13,284 nucleotides of DNA. Origin: Candidatus Nanohalarchaeota archaeon. Its GTDB lineage: Archaea > Nanohalarchaeota > Nanosalinia > Nanosalinales > JAFCCC01. Shown here piece by piece: positions 6,800-13,284 of the stretch. Both the position numbers and the translations under genes were made by a program. Below the pieces are notes generated by a model. It had not been told where the DNA came from. It made no database searches and worked only from the letters and a program-made list of their open reading frames with translations. Location of the stretch: contig JAFCCC010000013.1 in the NCBI GenBank assembly GCA_017610385.1, positions 1 to 13,284 on the forward strand. Reading direction: 5' to 3'. Position 1 is the first letter of the stretch. Each line of letters opens with the position of its first letter.

Positions 6800-7504
6800 A
6801 TGAAAATAGAACGCCTTTCTTTGGGATGCAAAAGTTTAGATGATTTATTAGGTGGCGGTTTAGAATACGGAGTTATCACGAATTTTTATGGAGAAGCTGG
6901 TTCAGGTAAGAGTAATTTAGCTTTAATCGCGACCAAGAATGTAGTAGCCGCTGGAAAGAAAGTAATTTTTATTGATACAGAAGGATCATATTCTATTGAA
7001 AGAATTAACCAAATTTCAAAAGCCCCTGAAAAAGTTAACTCAAATACCACCCTACTAGAACCAATGAATTTTAACGAGCAGCACAAAATGATTCTAGAAT
7101 TAAGCAAAAAAATTAGCAAAGAAATAGGATTAGTTGTTCTAGATTCACTAGTGGCTTTATATCGTATTGCAATGGGGCCTGATACTTTCGAAGATACTAA
7201 TAGAAAACTAGCCGCACAATTACTTGAACTTTCCAAGATCGCTCGAGAAAATAAAATCCCAGTTTTAGTTACAACACAAGTCTATTCTGATTTTAATGGA
7301 ACTACAGGAGATGTTGTTTTGGTTTCAAAAGACATAGCAAAATACTGGTCGAAATGTCTAGTCAAATTAGAAAAAGGCCCAAAAAATTTAAGAAAAGCAC
7401 AATTAACAAGACATCGCTCAAGGCCAGAAGGATTAGAAACAAATTTCTTTATTGTCGAAACAGGAGTAGAATCAAGAGAATCTGAACATGATAGACTATT
7501 TTGA
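6800..7504 (+). CDS. radB: RadB, RadA/Rad51-family recombination paralogue
   Basis: This 234-residue protein is a RecA-fold core only. It lacks the N-terminal helix-hairpin-helix domain of RadA, and that together with the length marks RadB. Walker A is GEAGSGKSN (31-39) with K37. Walker B is LVVLDS (111-116) with D115. The N-terminus LGCKSLDDLLGGGLEYG is typical and fixes the start at 6800. RadB helps RadA in homologous recombination and repair, usually with weak ATPase and no strand exchange of its own; that is family knowledge. The ending, rich in charged residues, matches RadB rather than KaiC-like proteins. Its stop overlaps the end of the convergent topA gene by 9 bp. It is divergent from the cdc48 unit and may share its operator. 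Confidence 0.92.
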   Translation: MKIERLSLGCKSLDDLLGGGLEYGVITNFYGEAGSGKSNLALIATKNVVAAGKKVIFIDTEGSYSIERINQISKAPEKVNSNTTLLEPMNFNEQHKMILELSKKISKEIGLVVLDSLVALYRIAMGPDTFEDTNRKLAAQLLELSKIARENKIPVLVTTQVYSDFNGTTGDVVLVSKDIAKYWSKCLVKLEKGPKNLRKAQLTRHRSRPEGLETNFFIVETGVESRESEHDRLF

Positions 7505-9526
7505 TTTTTTCTTTCCGGGACAGGCAGGATTAATACATAACATCCAAGGTCTTCTTCCTTTTGTAATTACCTTAACTATTGGATGATTGCACACCTTACA
7601 CTTTTGATTTGTTGTTCTAATTAATCCTTTTTGAGGTAATGGAAAAGAGGTTCTACACCCATTTGCAAAATTACTACAACCCACAAAACGTTTGCCACTT
7701 GATTTAGAAACAATAATTCTTAATGGTTTTCCACAGTTTGGACATACTCCCACCTCATTTTCTTTTCTACTTGTTTCATTAATTGACTTAATTAATTCCG
7801 CTCCAATTTCCTTTTCATCTTTCTTGAATCTTTCCAGCATTTTTGTTAATTCTTTTTTAGCAGAAGCAATAACCTCATCTAAACTTTTCTTATTTTGACG
7901 AACAGCTTCCATTTGATCTTCAAAATCTCTTGTTAATTCCTCAGAAACAATATCCGGACAATGTTTTTTTAATGTATCAGAAACACGCAAACCCAGTTCA
8001 GTGACTTTGATTTGGACGTCTTGAATATAATTTCTTTTATATAATGACTCAATGATTTCTGATCTAGTAGATTTTGTCCCAATCTCCTTGGATTCTAATT
8101 CAGATATTAATGAAGCGGCGGAAAATCTGTTAGGAGGCAGAGTTTGTTTTTTCAACAGCGATAATTTTCCATTCGTTAGTTTTTGACCTTCTTTTAATTC
8201 TGGAAATTCTGTTTCTTTTAATAAAACATATGGAGCATATATTCTAAACCAATGTTCTTCCAAAGTTCTATATCCCACGGCAATAAATTCATAATCTTTG
8301 ATTTTTACAGTAATTTGCATTTTCTCTCTAATTGCTGCGGTACCAAAGGTAGCCATAAATCTCTTTACAATTAAATCAAATACTTTGAAATCTTGAACTC
8401 CTAATTTATAATTAAATTCACCAGTAGGATAAATTGCCGGATGTGCAGAATCTTTCTTCCTTCCATTCCTTGGATTTAAAGAAGTTTTACTTAATAAAAA
8501 ATTAGCAGATTCTGCATATTTTTCATTTTTATTAATTTTTTCCAATATTGAACGATAGCCAATAGATGGCGGCAATTGTTCTGAAGATGTTCTTGGATAG
8601 GAAATCAATCCAGAAGAATAAAGTGTTTGTGCGCACTTCAATGTTTGTGACGGCGTAATTTTAAAACACCTATAAGCTTCTTTTTGTAGTTCCATTAGAT
8701 TAAATGGTGTTGGTGGTTGTACTTTGTAAGAATTTCTCTCAATTTTCGAAACAATAGCGTCGCTTTTCTGACAATCCGTTTTAATTTTTTTTGCTTTTTT
8801 CTCATCCCAAATTCGCTTTTCTTTATAACCCGCATCTACTTCTTTACATTTTAAAAGCAATTGCCAATATGGAACTGGCTTAAAATCTTGAATTTCTTTT
8901 TCTCGATCCGCCAAAATTCTCAGAGCAGGTCCTTGAACTCGTCCCACACTTAAAATCCTGTATCTTCCTTGACTTTTTACTGCGAGCATTAGTGCTCTAG
9001 ATGTATTAATGCCCCAATACCAGTCAAGAGTATGTCTTAAAAGGCCAGCATTTACTTGTCCTTGATCTAAATGAGGTTTTAGGTTTTTATAGGCGTTCCG
9101 AAGCTCATGGAATGTTAAAGTGGAGAATTTCATTCTTTTGGCGTTTTTTGTCCCACAAATAAACCTTAAAATATTATATCCAATAACCGCGCCCTCTAAA
9201 TCAAAATCAGTTGCCACAATAAAATTGTCACATGTTTTAGCAACTTCTTTCAGATTGTCGTGATATTTTTTAGTAAAGGCCGCTCCTTTTTGTATAAATG
9301 TACCACTCCACTCCACATCAAAAACAGGATAACTCCAGCCCTTGCTTTTTTGCGTTAGACCAAATAAATGACCAACTGCAGGAGCAACAACAACATCATT
9401 TCCATCAATCTTACATTCAAACCAATAGGCGCCTCTTTTAGTTTTTTTAATTTGGGTTCCCCCACTTATTGCATATGCAACTCTTTGCGCAGCATTAGGC
9501 TTTTCACAAATGACTAAAGTTCTCAT
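7496..9526 (-). CDS. topA: DNA topoisomerase, type IA, archaeal form
   Basis: This 676-residue enzyme cuts and passes single DNA strands to relax negative supercoils. The N-terminal TOPRIM domain has E8 (CEKP) and the acidic cluster D107-x-D109-x-E111. The catalytic tyrosine is Y310 in LISYPRTSS, with R312 beside it; YPRTSS, not YPRTDS, is common in archaeal members. H362 in SAHPAIYPTG is the conserved histidine of the cleavage site. The C-terminus carries two cysteine zinc modules: C595/C598 with C617/C624, and C643/C646 with C664/C669. It ends in a lysine-rich tail. There is no fused helicase, so it is not a reverse gyrase. A TATA-like box about 25 bp before the ATG suggests a leaderless message. 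The gene is monocistronic by context. Confidence 0.96.
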   Translation of the reverse strand: MRTLVICEKPNAAQRVAYAISGGTQIKKTKRGAYWFECKIDGNDVVVAPAVGHLFGLTQKSKGWSYPVFDVEWSGTFIQKGAAFTKKYHDNLKEVAKTCDNFIVATDFDLEGAVIGYNILRFICGTKNAKRMKFSTLTFHELRNAYKNLKPHLDQGQVNAGLLRHTLDWYWGINTSRALMLAVKSQGRYRILSVGRVQGPALRILADREKEIQDFKPVPYWQLLLKCKEVDAGYKEKRIWDEKKAKKIKTDCQKSDAIVSKIERNSYKVQPPTPFNLMELQKEAYRCFKITPSQTLKCAQTLYSSGLISYPRTSSEQLPPSIGYRSILEKINKNEKYAESANFLLSKTSLNPRNGRKKDSAHPAIYPTGEFNYKLGVQDFKVFDLIVKRFMATFGTAAIREKMQITVKIKDYEFIAVGYRTLEEHWFRIYAPYVLLKETEFPELKEGQKLTNGKLSLLKKQTLPPNRFSAASLISELESKEIGTKSTRSEIIESLYKRNYIQDVQIKVTELGLRVSDTLKKHCPDIVSEELTRDFEDQMEAVRQNKKSLDEVIASAKKELTKMLERFKKDEKEIGAELIKSINETSRKENEVGVCPNCGKPLRIIVSKSSGKRFVGCSNFANGCRTSFPLPQKGLIRTTNQKCKVCNHPIVKVITKGRRPWMLCINPACPGKKKSK
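7498..7514 (+). terminator. T-rich tract at the end of radB
   Basis: After the radB stop codon the plus strand reads ATTTTTTCTTT, an oligo-T stretch suited to archaeal termination. The same bases encode the lysine-rich tail of the topoisomerase on the other strand, so the tract may exist for that reason instead. Confidence 0.35.
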
Positions 9527-9686: not shown

Positions 9687-10967
9687 TTATTTGCCAATAA
9701 ACTTTTTCTTATTCATATATGGCCTTAGAACCTTTGGAATTTTTATTGTGCCGTCTTTTTGTTGATTTTGTTCTATAACCCCAATCATAACTCTACTTGT
9801 TGCTAATGCGGTGTTGTTTAGTGTATGAACAAAATCTTTTGGAGATTTTCCTTCGCCTTCTCTAAATTTAATATTCAAACTTCTGGCCTGATAATCTAAA
9901 CAATTTGAATTAGATCCAACTTCTCTATACTTTCCATCTGCCATCCAAACTTCTGTATCTAATCTTTTTGAGGCGATACCACTTAATTCACCAGCGCAAG
10001 TATTAACAACGCGAATAGCCAAACCTAATTCTTTATATAAATCTTCACAATTTTTTTGAAGTTCTTGATGAAATTTCCAAGAATCCCCTGGTTTACACAA
10101 GATTACTTGTTCGACTTTATGAAATTGGTGCATTCTAAATAATCCTTTGGTATATTTTCCGTGAGTGCCAATTTCCTTTCTAAAACTTGGACTTATTCCC
10201 ACCAATTTAATTGGAAGATCTTTTTCAGTTATTGTATCATTCATAAACTGACTAACTAGGGGATGTTCAGCAGTGGCGATCATGTACAGATCCTCATTTT
10301 CAATTTTGTACATCACCTCTTCAAAATCCTCTAAATCAACCACACCCTCATAGGGCTTCCTTCGCAACATATATGGCGGATTAACTAATATATAACCCCT
10401 TTTTCTTAAAAAATCAATTGCAAATCTTTGTAAAGCCATATCCAATATAGCTAATTCTTCTTTGTTATAGAAGAAACCAGTACCAGAAACTTTTGCTGCC
10501 CTTTCTGAATCAATTAACTTTAAATGAATTAAAAGCTCCAAATGATTTTTTGCTTTGAAATCAAACATAGGGGGTTTCCCAATTTTTTTAATTTCCACAT
10601 TATTCTCATCACCCACACCCAAAGGAACAGATTCATGAATAATATTTGGAAGAGACTTGTGAATTTTATCTCGTTTTTCTTTTAGTTTTTCCACATTTTC
10701 CTCTAATTTCTTAATTTCCAATGGAATTTCCTTAACTTCTTTTAATTTTTTATCTGTATTTTTCCCAGCCTTTTTTAATTCTGCAATTTCTTTAGTTAAA
10801 ACATTTCTTTTATGTTTCAATCCATTTACTTTTTCCAAATTAGCTCTCCAAGTCTTATCTAATTTTAAAAGCTCATCAACCAACGCAGGTTTCCCTTTAT
10901 TTCCTCGTTCTTTCAAATTCTTTCTAACAATTTCCGGATTTTCTCTAATTAATTTAATATCAATCAT
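9687..10967 (-). CDS. serS: Seryl-tRNA synthetase, standard class II type
   Basis: This enzyme charges tRNA-Ser with serine. The N-terminal long coiled coil (about 40-105), rich in lysine and glutamate, grips the long variable arm of tRNA-Ser. The class II core follows: the TAEH serine loop at 232-235, motif 2 from FRKEIG to FHKVE (262-286), and motif 3 around NNTALATSRVMIGVIEQ with R392 and the LRPYM end (414-418). It is the common form found in bacteria, eukaryotes and most archaea, not the rare methanogen type. The length of 426 is normal. Its ATG overlaps the end of tyrS by 8 bp (ATGATTGA), which implies translational coupling. It is the last gene of the tRNA-Tyr unit. Confidence 0.96.
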   Translation of the reverse strand: MIDIKLIRENPEIVRKNLKERGNKGKPALVDELLKLDKTWRANLEKVNGLKHKRNVLTKEIAELKKAGKNTDKKLKEVKEIPLEIKKLEENVEKLKEKRDKIHKSLPNIIHESVPLGVGDENNVEIKKIGKPPMFDFKAKNHLELLIHLKLIDSERAAKVSGTGFFYNKEELAILDMALQRFAIDFLRKRGYILVNPPYMLRRKPYEGVVDLEDFEEVMYKIENEDLYMIATAEHPLVSQFMNDTITEKDLPIKLVGISPSFRKEIGTHGKYTKGLFRMHQFHKVEQVILCKPGDSWKFHQELQKNCEDLYKELGLAIRVVNTCAGELSGIASKRLDTEVWMADGKYREVGSNSNCLDYQARSLNIKFREGEGKSPKDFVHTLNNTALATSRVMIGVIEQNQQKDGTIKIPKVLRPYMNKKKFIGK

Positions 10968-11985
10968 CAGGATATGCCTCTTTAGCTAATTTTTCTAGTT
11001 TTACACGGTTTTTTCGCATCGGTTCCAATAACTTATTAATTTCTATCACAACAGCATTTTTTAAATCCATTGGATGAATTTCCTTTTTAACAAATGATTT
11101 TTCTAATTCTTCTTTTGTCTTAAATTCCAAATTTCCGCCCCACTTTTCTGGCCGATTTATTATGAACTTTTTATTTTGGTCTTGAAGAATCGTCATAATA
11201 ACATGTTCGGCAAATGATAGAACTCCATTATCTTCAATAATACCTTCTGGACAAAACGCTTTATTAATTTTGATTTTAACTGTTTTTTCATCATCAAGCA
11301 AATCAATTTTTGTTCGGTCATCTGAGGCAGACATTTTCTTTCCAACCAGTCCTGGAAGCATGGGATTCATAATTTCGATTCTTGGTTTATATCCTAATCT
11401 CGGAAGATTTTCTCTTGAAAACATTAATATTTTCCTTTGATCTGTTCCCCCATATTGAATATCAATATTCAAGTAAACTTCATCTAAAGATTGCATAATC
11501 GGATAAATCAATCCAGATAATTGAGGGTTCTTTCCATATTTTACAACATCTGCTGAAGCTCTCTTACAGTCATTAATTGAAACAAAAGTAGAATATTTTA
11601 AAACATCTAACATGTAATCTTTTTTCAATTGAAAAGAAGAACCAGTTATAATTTCAAAATTTTTTATATCTGCGCCAACTGATTTAAACATTAACGAAAC
11701 AACTTCTGAATAATATTTATATCTCTTTTCCAGCAAATCCCACGGACAATTATCCAATGCCCCATGCAAATCTGCTAAAAGTAATTTTACCTTAAACCCT
11801 GCTTTAAGAAAATCTGCTAACTTTAATACCCAGATAAAATACGCTATGTGTGGTTTACCCGTTATTGCAGTGCCTAAATATACTGAGGGCTGCTTTTTAT
11901 TTTTCAATAATTCCATTAATTCTTTTTCAGTTACAATTTCTTGCGTATTTCTTTTTATTAGTTCAAATTTCTCATTAACATTCAT
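10960..11985 (-). CDS. tyrS: Tyrosyl-tRNA synthetase, resembling the eukaryotic cytosolic type
   Basis: This class I synthetase attaches tyrosine to tRNA-Tyr. Y36 in VYLGTA lies in the tyrosine pocket. The HIGH-equivalent is H46-I-A-Y49, and the KMSKS loop is KMSAS (217-221). The substrate-binding runs MQSLDE (164-169) and GGTDQRK (179-185) are present. Several stretches follow human TyrRS as I recall it more closely than the Methanocaldococcus enzyme: TGKPHIAYF, ADFLKAG, ADLHGALDN, PGLVGKKMS, NGVLSF and the ending EKLAKEAYPD. At 341 residues it has only the catalytic and anticodon domains, without the EMAP-like extension of human TyrRS. It starts directly at the stop of the YbaK-like gene (TAG-ATG), with GGTGGT upstream as ribosome site. 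It probably recognises the C1-G72 tRNA-Tyr at the head of its own operon. Confidence 0.95.
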   Translation of the reverse strand: MNVNEKFELIKRNTQEIVTEKELMELLKNKKQPSVYLGTAITGKPHIAYFIWVLKLADFLKAGFKVKLLLADLHGALDNCPWDLLEKRYKYYSEVVSLMFKSVGADIKNFEIITGSSFQLKKDYMLDVLKYSTFVSINDCKRASADVVKYGKNPQLSGLIYPIMQSLDEVYLNIDIQYGGTDQRKILMFSRENLPRLGYKPRIEIMNPMLPGLVGKKMSASDDRTKIDLLDDEKTVKIKINKAFCPEGIIEDNGVLSFAEHVIMTILQDQNKKFIINRPEKWGGNLEFKTKEELEKSFVKKEIHPMDLKNAVVIEINKLLEPMRKNRVKLEKLAKEAYPDD

Positions 11986-12447
11986 CTAAACCACCACATT
12001 CTCTATTTTGTAGTTAATGCATTTTAAGATATCTCCTGATTTCATTTCAAGCCCGTTTAATAAATCACCAGATCCAAAATGAACATTTTCTAACTTTAAC
12101 ACATCTTTATCCACAAAAACCACAATATCTAAAAATAAAGGGCAAACTTCCCCAAGTTCAAATCCAAATTGATTTTTTATTTCCTGTTTGTTTAAGAGCC
12201 TAATCTTACTTCCCTGAATTTCTTTGAGTTTTTCAAAATCAATTCTATCTGTACCACGCAAAAAAACACCAAAAACCGTTTTACCTTTCAGTAAAATTGT
12301 TTTACAAATTTCTTCAATTTTTACAGGAACCGTGGCCCTTCTAACAACGTCTTTAACGGAAATTGCAGGCCCAGTTAGACTTACAACCTTAAACTCTAGG
12401 CTCCTCTCTCTTAATCTGTGTGTTATTTGTTTTAATCTTTTATTCAT
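11986..12447 (-). CDS. YbaK/ProX-like aminoacyl-tRNA deacylase domain protein
   Basis: This free-standing editing-type domain of 153 residues has the family features in order: a short N-terminal helix, FKVVSLTGPAISVKDVV, the ICKTILLKG block with the conserved lysine K49, GTDRIDFEKLKEI, the GEVCPLF segment (99-105, family G-x-V-x-P), and FGSGDLLNGLEM near the end. YbaK-superfamily proteins hydrolyse wrongly charged tRNAs such as Cys- or Ala-tRNA-Pro. The substrate here is not known; the location between tRNA-Tyr and the TyrRS/SerRS genes hints at one of those tRNAs. I chose the ATG at 12447, not the in-frame GTG at 12456, because that GTG lies inside AAAGGTG, which forms a Shine-Dalgarno site six bases before the ATG. 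The gene begins 19 nt after the tRNA 3' end. Confidence 0.85.
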   Translation of the reverse strand: MNKRLKQITHRLRERSLEFKVVSLTGPAISVKDVVRRATVPVKIEEICKTILLKGKTVFGVFLRGTDRIDFEKLKEIQGSKIRLLNKQEIKNQFGFELGEVCPLFLDIVVFVDKDVLKLENVHFGSGDLLNGLEMKSGDILKCINYKIENVVV

Positions 12448-12452
12448 ACGAA

Positions 12453-12459
12453 ACACCTT
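12453..12459 (-). promoter_or_regulatory. Shine-Dalgarno site deciding the YbaK-like start
   Basis: AAGGTGT on the minus strand sits about 6 nt before the ATG at 12447 and inside the 19-nt leader that would remain after tRNA processing. It argues against the overlapping GTG as start codon. Confidence 0.55.
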
Positions 12460-12466
12460 TTTTGAA

Positions 12467-12538
12467 TCTCGGAGACGAGAGTTGAACCCGCACCTTCAGG
12501 TCTACAGCCTGATATGCTACCATTGACACCACCCCGAG
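12467..12538 (-). tRNA. tRNA-Tyr (anticodon GUA), intronless
   Basis: The 72-nt cloverleaf folds fully. The acceptor pairs CTCGGGG with CTCCGAG (one G-U). The D stem is GTGT/GCAT with G18-G19 in the loop. The anticodon stem TCAGG/CCTGA holds the loop C-T-GTA-G-A. The variable loop is 4 nt, and the T arm is GCGGG/CTCGT with loop TTCAACT. C1-G72 and A73 are the identity elements read by archaeal and eukaryotic TyrRS. No CCA is encoded and there is no intron, although archaeal tRNA-Tyr genes often have one. Position 14 is C, not the near-universal A, which would disturb the U8-A14 contact; A15-U48 is intact. The gene heads the transcript encoding its own synthetase. A TATA box lies about 26 bp before position 12543. 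Confidence 0.93.
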
Positions 12539-12563: not shown

Positions 12564-12572
12564 CTATAATAA
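12564..12572 (-). promoter_or_regulatory. Probable TATA box for the tRNA-Tyr/synthetase unit
   Basis: The minus strand reads TTATTATAG. Transcription would start near 12543, a few bases before the tRNA 5' end at 12538. This is the only good promoter candidate close upstream of the four-gene unit. Confidence 0.45.
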
Positions 12573-12674
12573 GAATAACTGGAGTTAGAATTTAAAGTAA
12601 TTGAATTTTTAATTAAATTGTTGAATAAACTTAAGAATAAATTTTGCAAAGCTGAAACTAGAAAACAGAACTTC

Positions 12675-12740
12675 TTAACCGCCAGTTCCCAAACCGTAAC
12701 TGAGATACCGGCAACCACTAGACCGTAAATCACTTTTCAT
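12675..12740 (-). other. GC-rich patch: possible structured leader RNA or 21-codon leader peptide
   Basis: On the minus strand an ATG at 12740 follows GGTGA by a normal ribosome-site distance and opens 21 codons before TAA at 12675-12677. The peptide would have four Ser and two Tyr codons plus five Gly. The RNA can form either of two exclusive hairpins that share one strand: GCCGGT with ACTGGC, or TCAGTT with AACTGG. Both facts fit an attenuator ahead of the Tyr/Ser synthetase unit, but leader-peptide control is rare in archaea and the tRNA lies in between. It may instead be part of an unrecognised small RNA. It is not a tRNA. Confidence 0.25.
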
Positions 12741-12754
12741 CTTTATTCACCTTA

Positions 12755-12843
12755 CATCTTCCATTTTACCAACCAACTTCTCTGTCCGTTTTTAATCACT
12801 TAACTGATGCCCATCCATTTTAATTACACTGCATCTTCCATTT
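12755..12843. repeat. Direct repeat CATCTTCCATTT, two copies
   Basis: Copies at 12755-12766 and 12832-12843 are identical over 12 bp and start 77 bp apart. A weaker relative, CCATCCATTTT, lies between them near 12811. Function is unknown. Confidence 0.4.
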
Positions 12844-12960: not shown

Positions 12961-13284
12961 ATGAGTACCACTTTTTTCTTTCCAACAGGATTAAAACCAT
13001 GTAGTATTGAACAGAGAAAAGAATTTTACACAAAGGAATTTAATATTGACAAGGCAGAAAAATGGTTCACATTAAACAACAGAACACAGGGTTTGATTGT
13101 TATTGATATTGGAACAGAAACAACAAGATATAGACCAATTCTGAAAAAATATTTGGGAAAATTAGTAAATATATCGAAATTTGAAGACACCACCCAGTTA
13201 AAAGAAAAACTTCTGTATTACATTCCAGAGGATATTTATTATTCAATTAAAACAATTCAGGGAATTCGAGAACACCAAGAATTA
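12961..13284 (+). CDS. priS: DNA primase small subunit-like protein, N-terminal part
   Basis: The open frame runs from ATG 12961 to the window edge with 108 residues and no stop. The opening EQRKEFYTKEF followed by a helix and KWF (about 17-36) matches the start of archaeal/eukaryotic primase small subunits (R-x-x-FY-x-x-x-[FW]). The later run from SKFEDTTQLKEKLLYYIP to DIYYSI (about 72-96) fits the family segment that ends P-x-x-[IV]-Y-x-S-[VI]. The catalytic D-x-D and zinc-binding residues would lie beyond the window, so the assignment rests on the N-terminal pattern. PriS makes the RNA/DNA primers for replication together with PriL. It could also be a divergent primase-related protein. It is divergent from the tRNA-Tyr unit. 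Confidence 0.6.
   Translation, partial: MSTTFFFPTGLKPCSIEQRKEFYTKEFNIDKAEKWFTLNNRTQGLIVIDIGTETTRYRPILKKYLGKLVNISKFEDTTQLKEKLLYYIPEDIYYSIKTIQGIREHQEL

Follow-up and report, generated by a model that had tools for sequence, protein, structure and literature searches.

An intronless tRNA-Tyr gene stands at the head of a gene cluster for an aminoacyl-tRNA deacylase, tyrosyl-tRNA synthetase (TyrRS) and seryl-tRNA synthetase (SerRS) in the stretch of 13,284 nucleotides that was analysed, here called the window. The reading favoured here, with moderate confidence, is that of a lineage-specific tRNA/mRNA dicistron in front of an older operon, supplying a supplementary tRNA-Tyr and reflecting a recurrent habit of these archaea. 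The tRNA gene would have joined a pre-existing ybaK-tyrS-serS operon in this lineage, as a second, intronless tRNA-Tyr in which a body like that of Nanoarchaeota tRNA-His carries the archaeal Tyr identity set. The features of the locus are:

12565..12572, minus strand: candidate TATA-like box TTATTATA, at -34 to -27 relative to the 5' end of tRNA-Tyr
12467..12538, minus strand: tRNA-Tyr(GUA), intronless (ARAGORN and Rfam RF00005)
12448..12466, minus strand: 19-nt spacer between tRNA-Tyr and the deacylase ORF, the putative leader after tRNase Z cutting (from the sequence)
11986..12447, minus strand: YbaK-type aminoacyl-tRNA deacylase, 153 aa (PF04073, E 1.4e-16)
10960..11985, minus strand: tyrS, archaeal TyrRS, 341 aa (NF006330, 327 bits)
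9687..10967, minus strand: serS, SerRS, 426 aa (TIGR00414, 453 bits)
7496..9526, minus strand: topA, next downstream of serS (ORF; homologues lie 3' of serS in many f4 loci)
12961..13284, plus strand: 5' part of priS (primase small subunit), a divergent neighbour truncated at the window end

The first-pass annotation had proposed that one transcript carries the tRNA and the three genes behind it, and the spacing to which it appealed was confirmed: 19 nt (12466-12448) separate the tRNA discriminator A73 from the deacylase ATG at 12447, the deacylase end (11986) abuts the tyrS start (11985), and the end of tyrS (10960) overlaps the start of serS (10967) by 8 bp. With one strand throughout, a 19-nt spacer, and junctions of 0 nt and an 8-bp overlap, the set has the adjacency and spacing of an operon of a tRNA and its cognate synthetase, with a deacylase gene between the two. 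The short leader with a Shine-Dalgarno site, also proposed earlier, is present as 19 nt containing AGGTG (12458-12454), which begins 8 nt past the 3' end of tRNA-Tyr. The deacylase might start at an in-frame GTG (12456) or at the ATG at 12447, and the latter is more likely because of the placement of AGGTG six nt upstream of it. The box TTATTATA has 7/8 matches to the archaeal TATA consensus, and perfect boxes occur at the same position in several other tRNA genes of this genome; it is a candidate, two further 7/8 TATA-like matches being found in the same stretch upstream of the tRNA. The spacer is too small for a promoter. Because the TATA-like box lies at -34 to -27 and no T-run follows the tRNA, a single transcript is likely. 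It would extend from one promoter just upstream of 12538 through tRNA-Tyr, deacylase, TyrRS and SerRS; release of the tRNA by RNase P and tRNase Z would follow, tRNase Z leaving an mRNA that starts near 12466, with the 19-nt leader and its Shine-Dalgarno-like site. If this is true, a tRNA and its synthetase on one transcript would be a simple means of keeping both in step.

The window contig resembles the other contigs of the genome in GC content (0.330 versus 0.332) and tetranucleotide composition (correlation 0.92), which rules out misbinning. A second tRNA-like element or guide RNA at 12600-12760 was considered and rejected (no Rfam match, fold z-score -0.9), and that interval has no strong second copy elsewhere in the genome. 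No T-box leader was found before a synthetase gene of the window, where the sole Rfam match at gathering score is the tRNA; archaea are not known to use T-box control. The solved structures nearest to the deacylase are 1wdv, 3op6 and 2cx5.

The tRNA-Tyr of the window matches RF00005 over its full length (51.6 bits, E 7e-9), and ARAGORN gives the same call (12538-12467). Every stem of the cloverleaf is paired, the T-loop is intact, the variable loop is short, and CCA is not encoded. The criteria for membership among archaeal tRNA-Tyr were those of PMC9976931 and PMC5370408, the former listing A73, C1-G72 and G34 U35 A36 as identity elements; the window gene has the complete set (C1-G72, A73 and the GUA anticodon). 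The D-loop is one C longer than in its tRNA-His homologues, the additional base lying between positions 13 and 14, and the Rfam alignment puts C at position 14, where the canonical D-arm has A14; the extra C beside this position may weaken the function of the tRNA. As part of the favoured reading, and with the same moderate confidence, the gene is predicted to yield a tRNA that supplements the canonical, intron-bearing tRNA-Tyr instead of being the sole supply.

That canonical gene, on contig C11 of the same genome (locus L101, 1485-1662), gives the genome a tRNA-Tyr besides that of the window. Introns interrupt it in both the anticodon loop and the T-loop; because of these two inserts, it is missed by ARAGORN and by a genome-wide Rfam search, and it was found only by a pattern search with two gaps, which recovered few real relatives. 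The T-loop insert folds as a 3-4-3 bulge-helix-bulge (3-nt bulges on either side of a 4-bp helix), the anticodon-loop intron is delimited with less certainty, and the RNA after splicing is recognised as tRNA-Tyr with a perfect cloverleaf. Disruption of the canonical gene by an inserted element was ruled out, as the T-loop insert is an exact bulge-helix-bulge intron that splices cleanly. Its anticodon is the same GUA, so the window gene adds no decoding capacity. Given this second source on another contig, the output of tRNA-Tyr is not wholly tied to that of TyrRS, contrary to the earlier suggestion. More generally, tRNA totals in such genomes are unreliable when a canonical tRNA-Tyr is invisible to ARAGORN and Rfam, and a claim of an "only tRNA-Tyr" is not readable from a standard scan. 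The unrelated tRNAs of L101 (Tyr) and L004 (Arg-CCT) are preceded, at about 105 nt, by leaders homologous to each other (80% over 106 nt), and several other tRNA genes of this genome have upstream hairpins that end in a short stem immediately 5' of the tRNA.

When 371 Nanoarchaeota genomes were searched by BLAST, the best relatives of the window tRNA were four tRNA-His(GUG) genes, which match it at 77-82% across some 60 nt. Core identity is 75-81% to these four versus 67-72% to four tRNA-Tyr, in a comparison where the tRNA-His set consists of the best BLAST matches and BLAST handicaps intron-bearing tRNA-Tyr. The D-stem of the window tRNA is common to the four tRNA-His. The resemblance is suggestive of a tRNA-His-like origin, and a surplus tRNA-Tyr with such a body may exemplify recruitment of a tRNA from one amino-acid identity to another, next to the very enzyme by which it must be recognised. 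The tRNA-His of the same genome was ruled out as the parent (core identity 55%). A BLAST search within the order gave nothing useful, and a search of viral contigs for a source, with a degenerate but narrow pattern, gave no exact match and hence no support for a viral origin.

The order ybaK-tyrS-serS-topA recurs among 28 genomes of the archaeal order to which this genome belongs, mainly in one family, and the arrangement ybaK-tyrS-serS(-topA) is old there. The nearest relative (G001) shares with the window a priS gene divergent to ybaK-tyrS-serS, but its gap between priS and ybaK is too small for a tRNA. The priS call in the window is based on 43% identity over 92 aa to a G001 protein matching PF01896; the YbaK proteins of the two genomes are too diverged for a BLASTP match, though both match PF04073. 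Another genome (G010; L084 6432-8594) has two tandem TyrRS-like genes between ybaK and serS, the second a diverged paralogue with 35% identity. Conservation of tRNA-Tyr beside tyrS in relatives, which the first-pass annotation had put forward as a check, was not borne out: no tRNA-Tyr adjoins tyrS at any other tyrS locus fetched, and no tyrS adjoins tRNA-Tyr at the tRNA-Tyr loci read elsewhere. This makes the tRNA an addition specific to the lineage, and its absence from other loci does not mean that the pair in the window is untranscribed. The earlier interpretation of the layout is partly supported. In the tree, the window TyrRS nests within Nanoarchaeota TyrRS together with that of G001 (fork 100/98), apart from most of its own order. 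The tyrS gene was probably replaced in place by lateral transfer, the operon neighbours remaining those of the order; lateral transfer of TyrRS among DPANN archaea has been reported (PMC5370408). It is the only TyrRS gene found in the searched loci and stretches of the genome, where one other match was weak.

Tight tandems of a tRNA and an ORF are ordinary in this genome, the gaps at three others being 4, 24 and 34 nt. The tandems noted elsewhere (L007, L008, L019 and L028) are tRNA-Asn/peptidyl-tRNA hydrolase Pth2, tRNA-Arg/DUF192, tRNA-Cys/a 123-aa ORF of unknown kind with a strong Shine-Dalgarno site, and tRNA-Leu/L18e. The chance that one of about four tight tandems should hold the cognate synthetase is about 1%, a rough estimate rather than a computed value, and so the tRNA-Tyr/tyrS case taken alone could be coincidence. 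In a compact genome, a surplus tRNA may have landed before an operon that encodes its own synthetase by accident, with any co-transcription an unselected side effect. The tandems with unrelated genes (DUF192, L18e and the unknown ORF) and the lack of the arrangement in relatives agree with such an accident, but the one isotype in surplus is exactly that of the operon, and hisS is preceded by tRNA-His genes with a related body far more often than chance would place them there. Coincidence is considered rather unlikely.

The tRNA-His evidence comes from a pattern search of 371 Nanoarchaeota genomes, from which 65 loci were read, selected regardless of their neighbours. At 17 of them (L143, L147, L150, L152, L153, L155, L156, L157, L159, L163, L168, L170, L173, L197, L205, L206 and L207), hisS is next to tRNA-His on the same strand within 350 nt; by estimate, not computation, a named gene would follow a given tRNA by chance on the order of one time in a thousand. 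Nine of these gaps fall within 7-39 nt (7, 10, 19, 19, 20, 21, 22, 22 and 39), and several of the short ones contain a GGAGG Shine-Dalgarno site; some longer gaps hold TATA-like stretches, so hisS may have its own promoter there. At a threshold of 60% identity, the HisRS proteins of these loci fall into 14 clusters; the median identity between pairs is 44%, and the pattern is therefore either old or has arisen many times. A further case (L068 9236-9367) was met outside the scan, at a tyrS locus. At three more loci (L130, L133 and L135) tRNA-His precedes hisG, which was confirmed as HisG for one, followed by hisI or hisH; here the tRNA heads biosynthesis genes of its own amino acid. In most genomes with the tRNA-His/hisS pair, the tRNA heading hisS is the sole tRNA-His match to a pattern that may miss others, and these genes are probably working tRNAs. 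A literature search, with most subscription journals outside its reach, found no description of the recurrence. Given this recurrence, the succession of a tRNA by its own enzyme looks like a real but little-described coupling, and it is reasonably probable that the window layout is an instance of a habit of these archaea that is clearest as tRNA-His/hisS. The 14 divergent clusters make the coupling idea directly testable.

Two regulatory readings go further. The tRNA-first dicistrons with genes for the same amino acid (tRNA-His/hisS, tRNA-His/hisG and tRNA-Tyr/tyrS) might serve DPANN archaea as a form of regulation, translation of the downstream mRNA being set at the 5' tRNA by the synthetase or the processing enzymes that act there; the window would be a fresh instance, with a tRNA-His body recruited to Tyr identity before a laterally acquired tyrS. 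This proposal is regarded as improbable. Still less credence is given to the idea that the element is a mimic, hardly or not used as a tRNA, to which excess TyrRS binds as a tRNA-like 5' leader, repressing translation of its own operon. Autoregulation of the E. coli thrS type works through such a tRNA-like leader, placed before the ribosome-binding site in a synthetase operon, and the window is alike in having one 5' of that site; to our knowledge, however, the thrS-type leader never takes the form of a cloverleaf gene and stays in the mRNA, whereas the window has a complete tRNA. A mimic would suit the existence of a dedicated tRNA-Tyr gene elsewhere in the genome, the retention of the Tyr identity set by a tRNA whose body is not of the Tyr kind and whose D-arm is unusual, and the closeness of the Shine-Dalgarno-like site to the tRNA 3' end. 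It sits poorly with the intact stems and T-loop, which mean that RNase P and tRNase Z should excise the tRNA, with a first downstream gene that is not TyrRS, and with the probably functional state of the tRNA-His genes before hisS. The supplementary-tRNA dicistron accordingly remains the preferred reading.

Operons of a tRNA and its own synthetase are already known, as pylTS and tRNA-Trp(A73)/TrpRS-A. The pylTSBCD cluster of Methanosarcinales begins with the tRNA-Pyl gene pylT, followed by the synthetase gene pylS (PMC2933860, PMC11467909), and resembles the window in that the tRNA gene leads the cluster of its own synthetase on one strand; pyrrolysine, however, is an addition to the standard amino acids that comes with dedicated biosynthesis genes and has just one tRNA, whereas in the window the amino acid is a standard one, the synthetase is the only TyrRS found, and the tRNA is a surplus copy set apart from the synthetase gene by that of a deacylase. 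The tRNA-Trp(A73)/ORF1/TrpRS-A operons of some CPR bacteria (PMC5370408) likewise combine an extra tRNA with its cognate synthetase, with an ORF between them and the canonical tRNA elsewhere, but theirs is a second, non-canonical TrpRS. In the halobacterial S9 operon, co-transcription of tRNA-Leu with an mRNA is reported by Kromer and Arndt (1991), as cited in PMC2871058; by that account it parallels the window as an archaeal tRNA gene with a downstream mRNA, co-transcription being reported there and inferred here, and differs in having ribosomal protein genes instead of a cognate synthetase (the present genome also has its tRNA-Leu/L18e neighbour pair). The Nanoarchaeota tRNA-His/hisS loci share with the window a tRNA followed by its own synthetase on the same strand, often at 19-22 nt with a Shine-Dalgarno site, and a related tRNA body; they differ in serving histidine, in an interval free of a deacylase gene, and in their recurrence in 14 divergent clusters.
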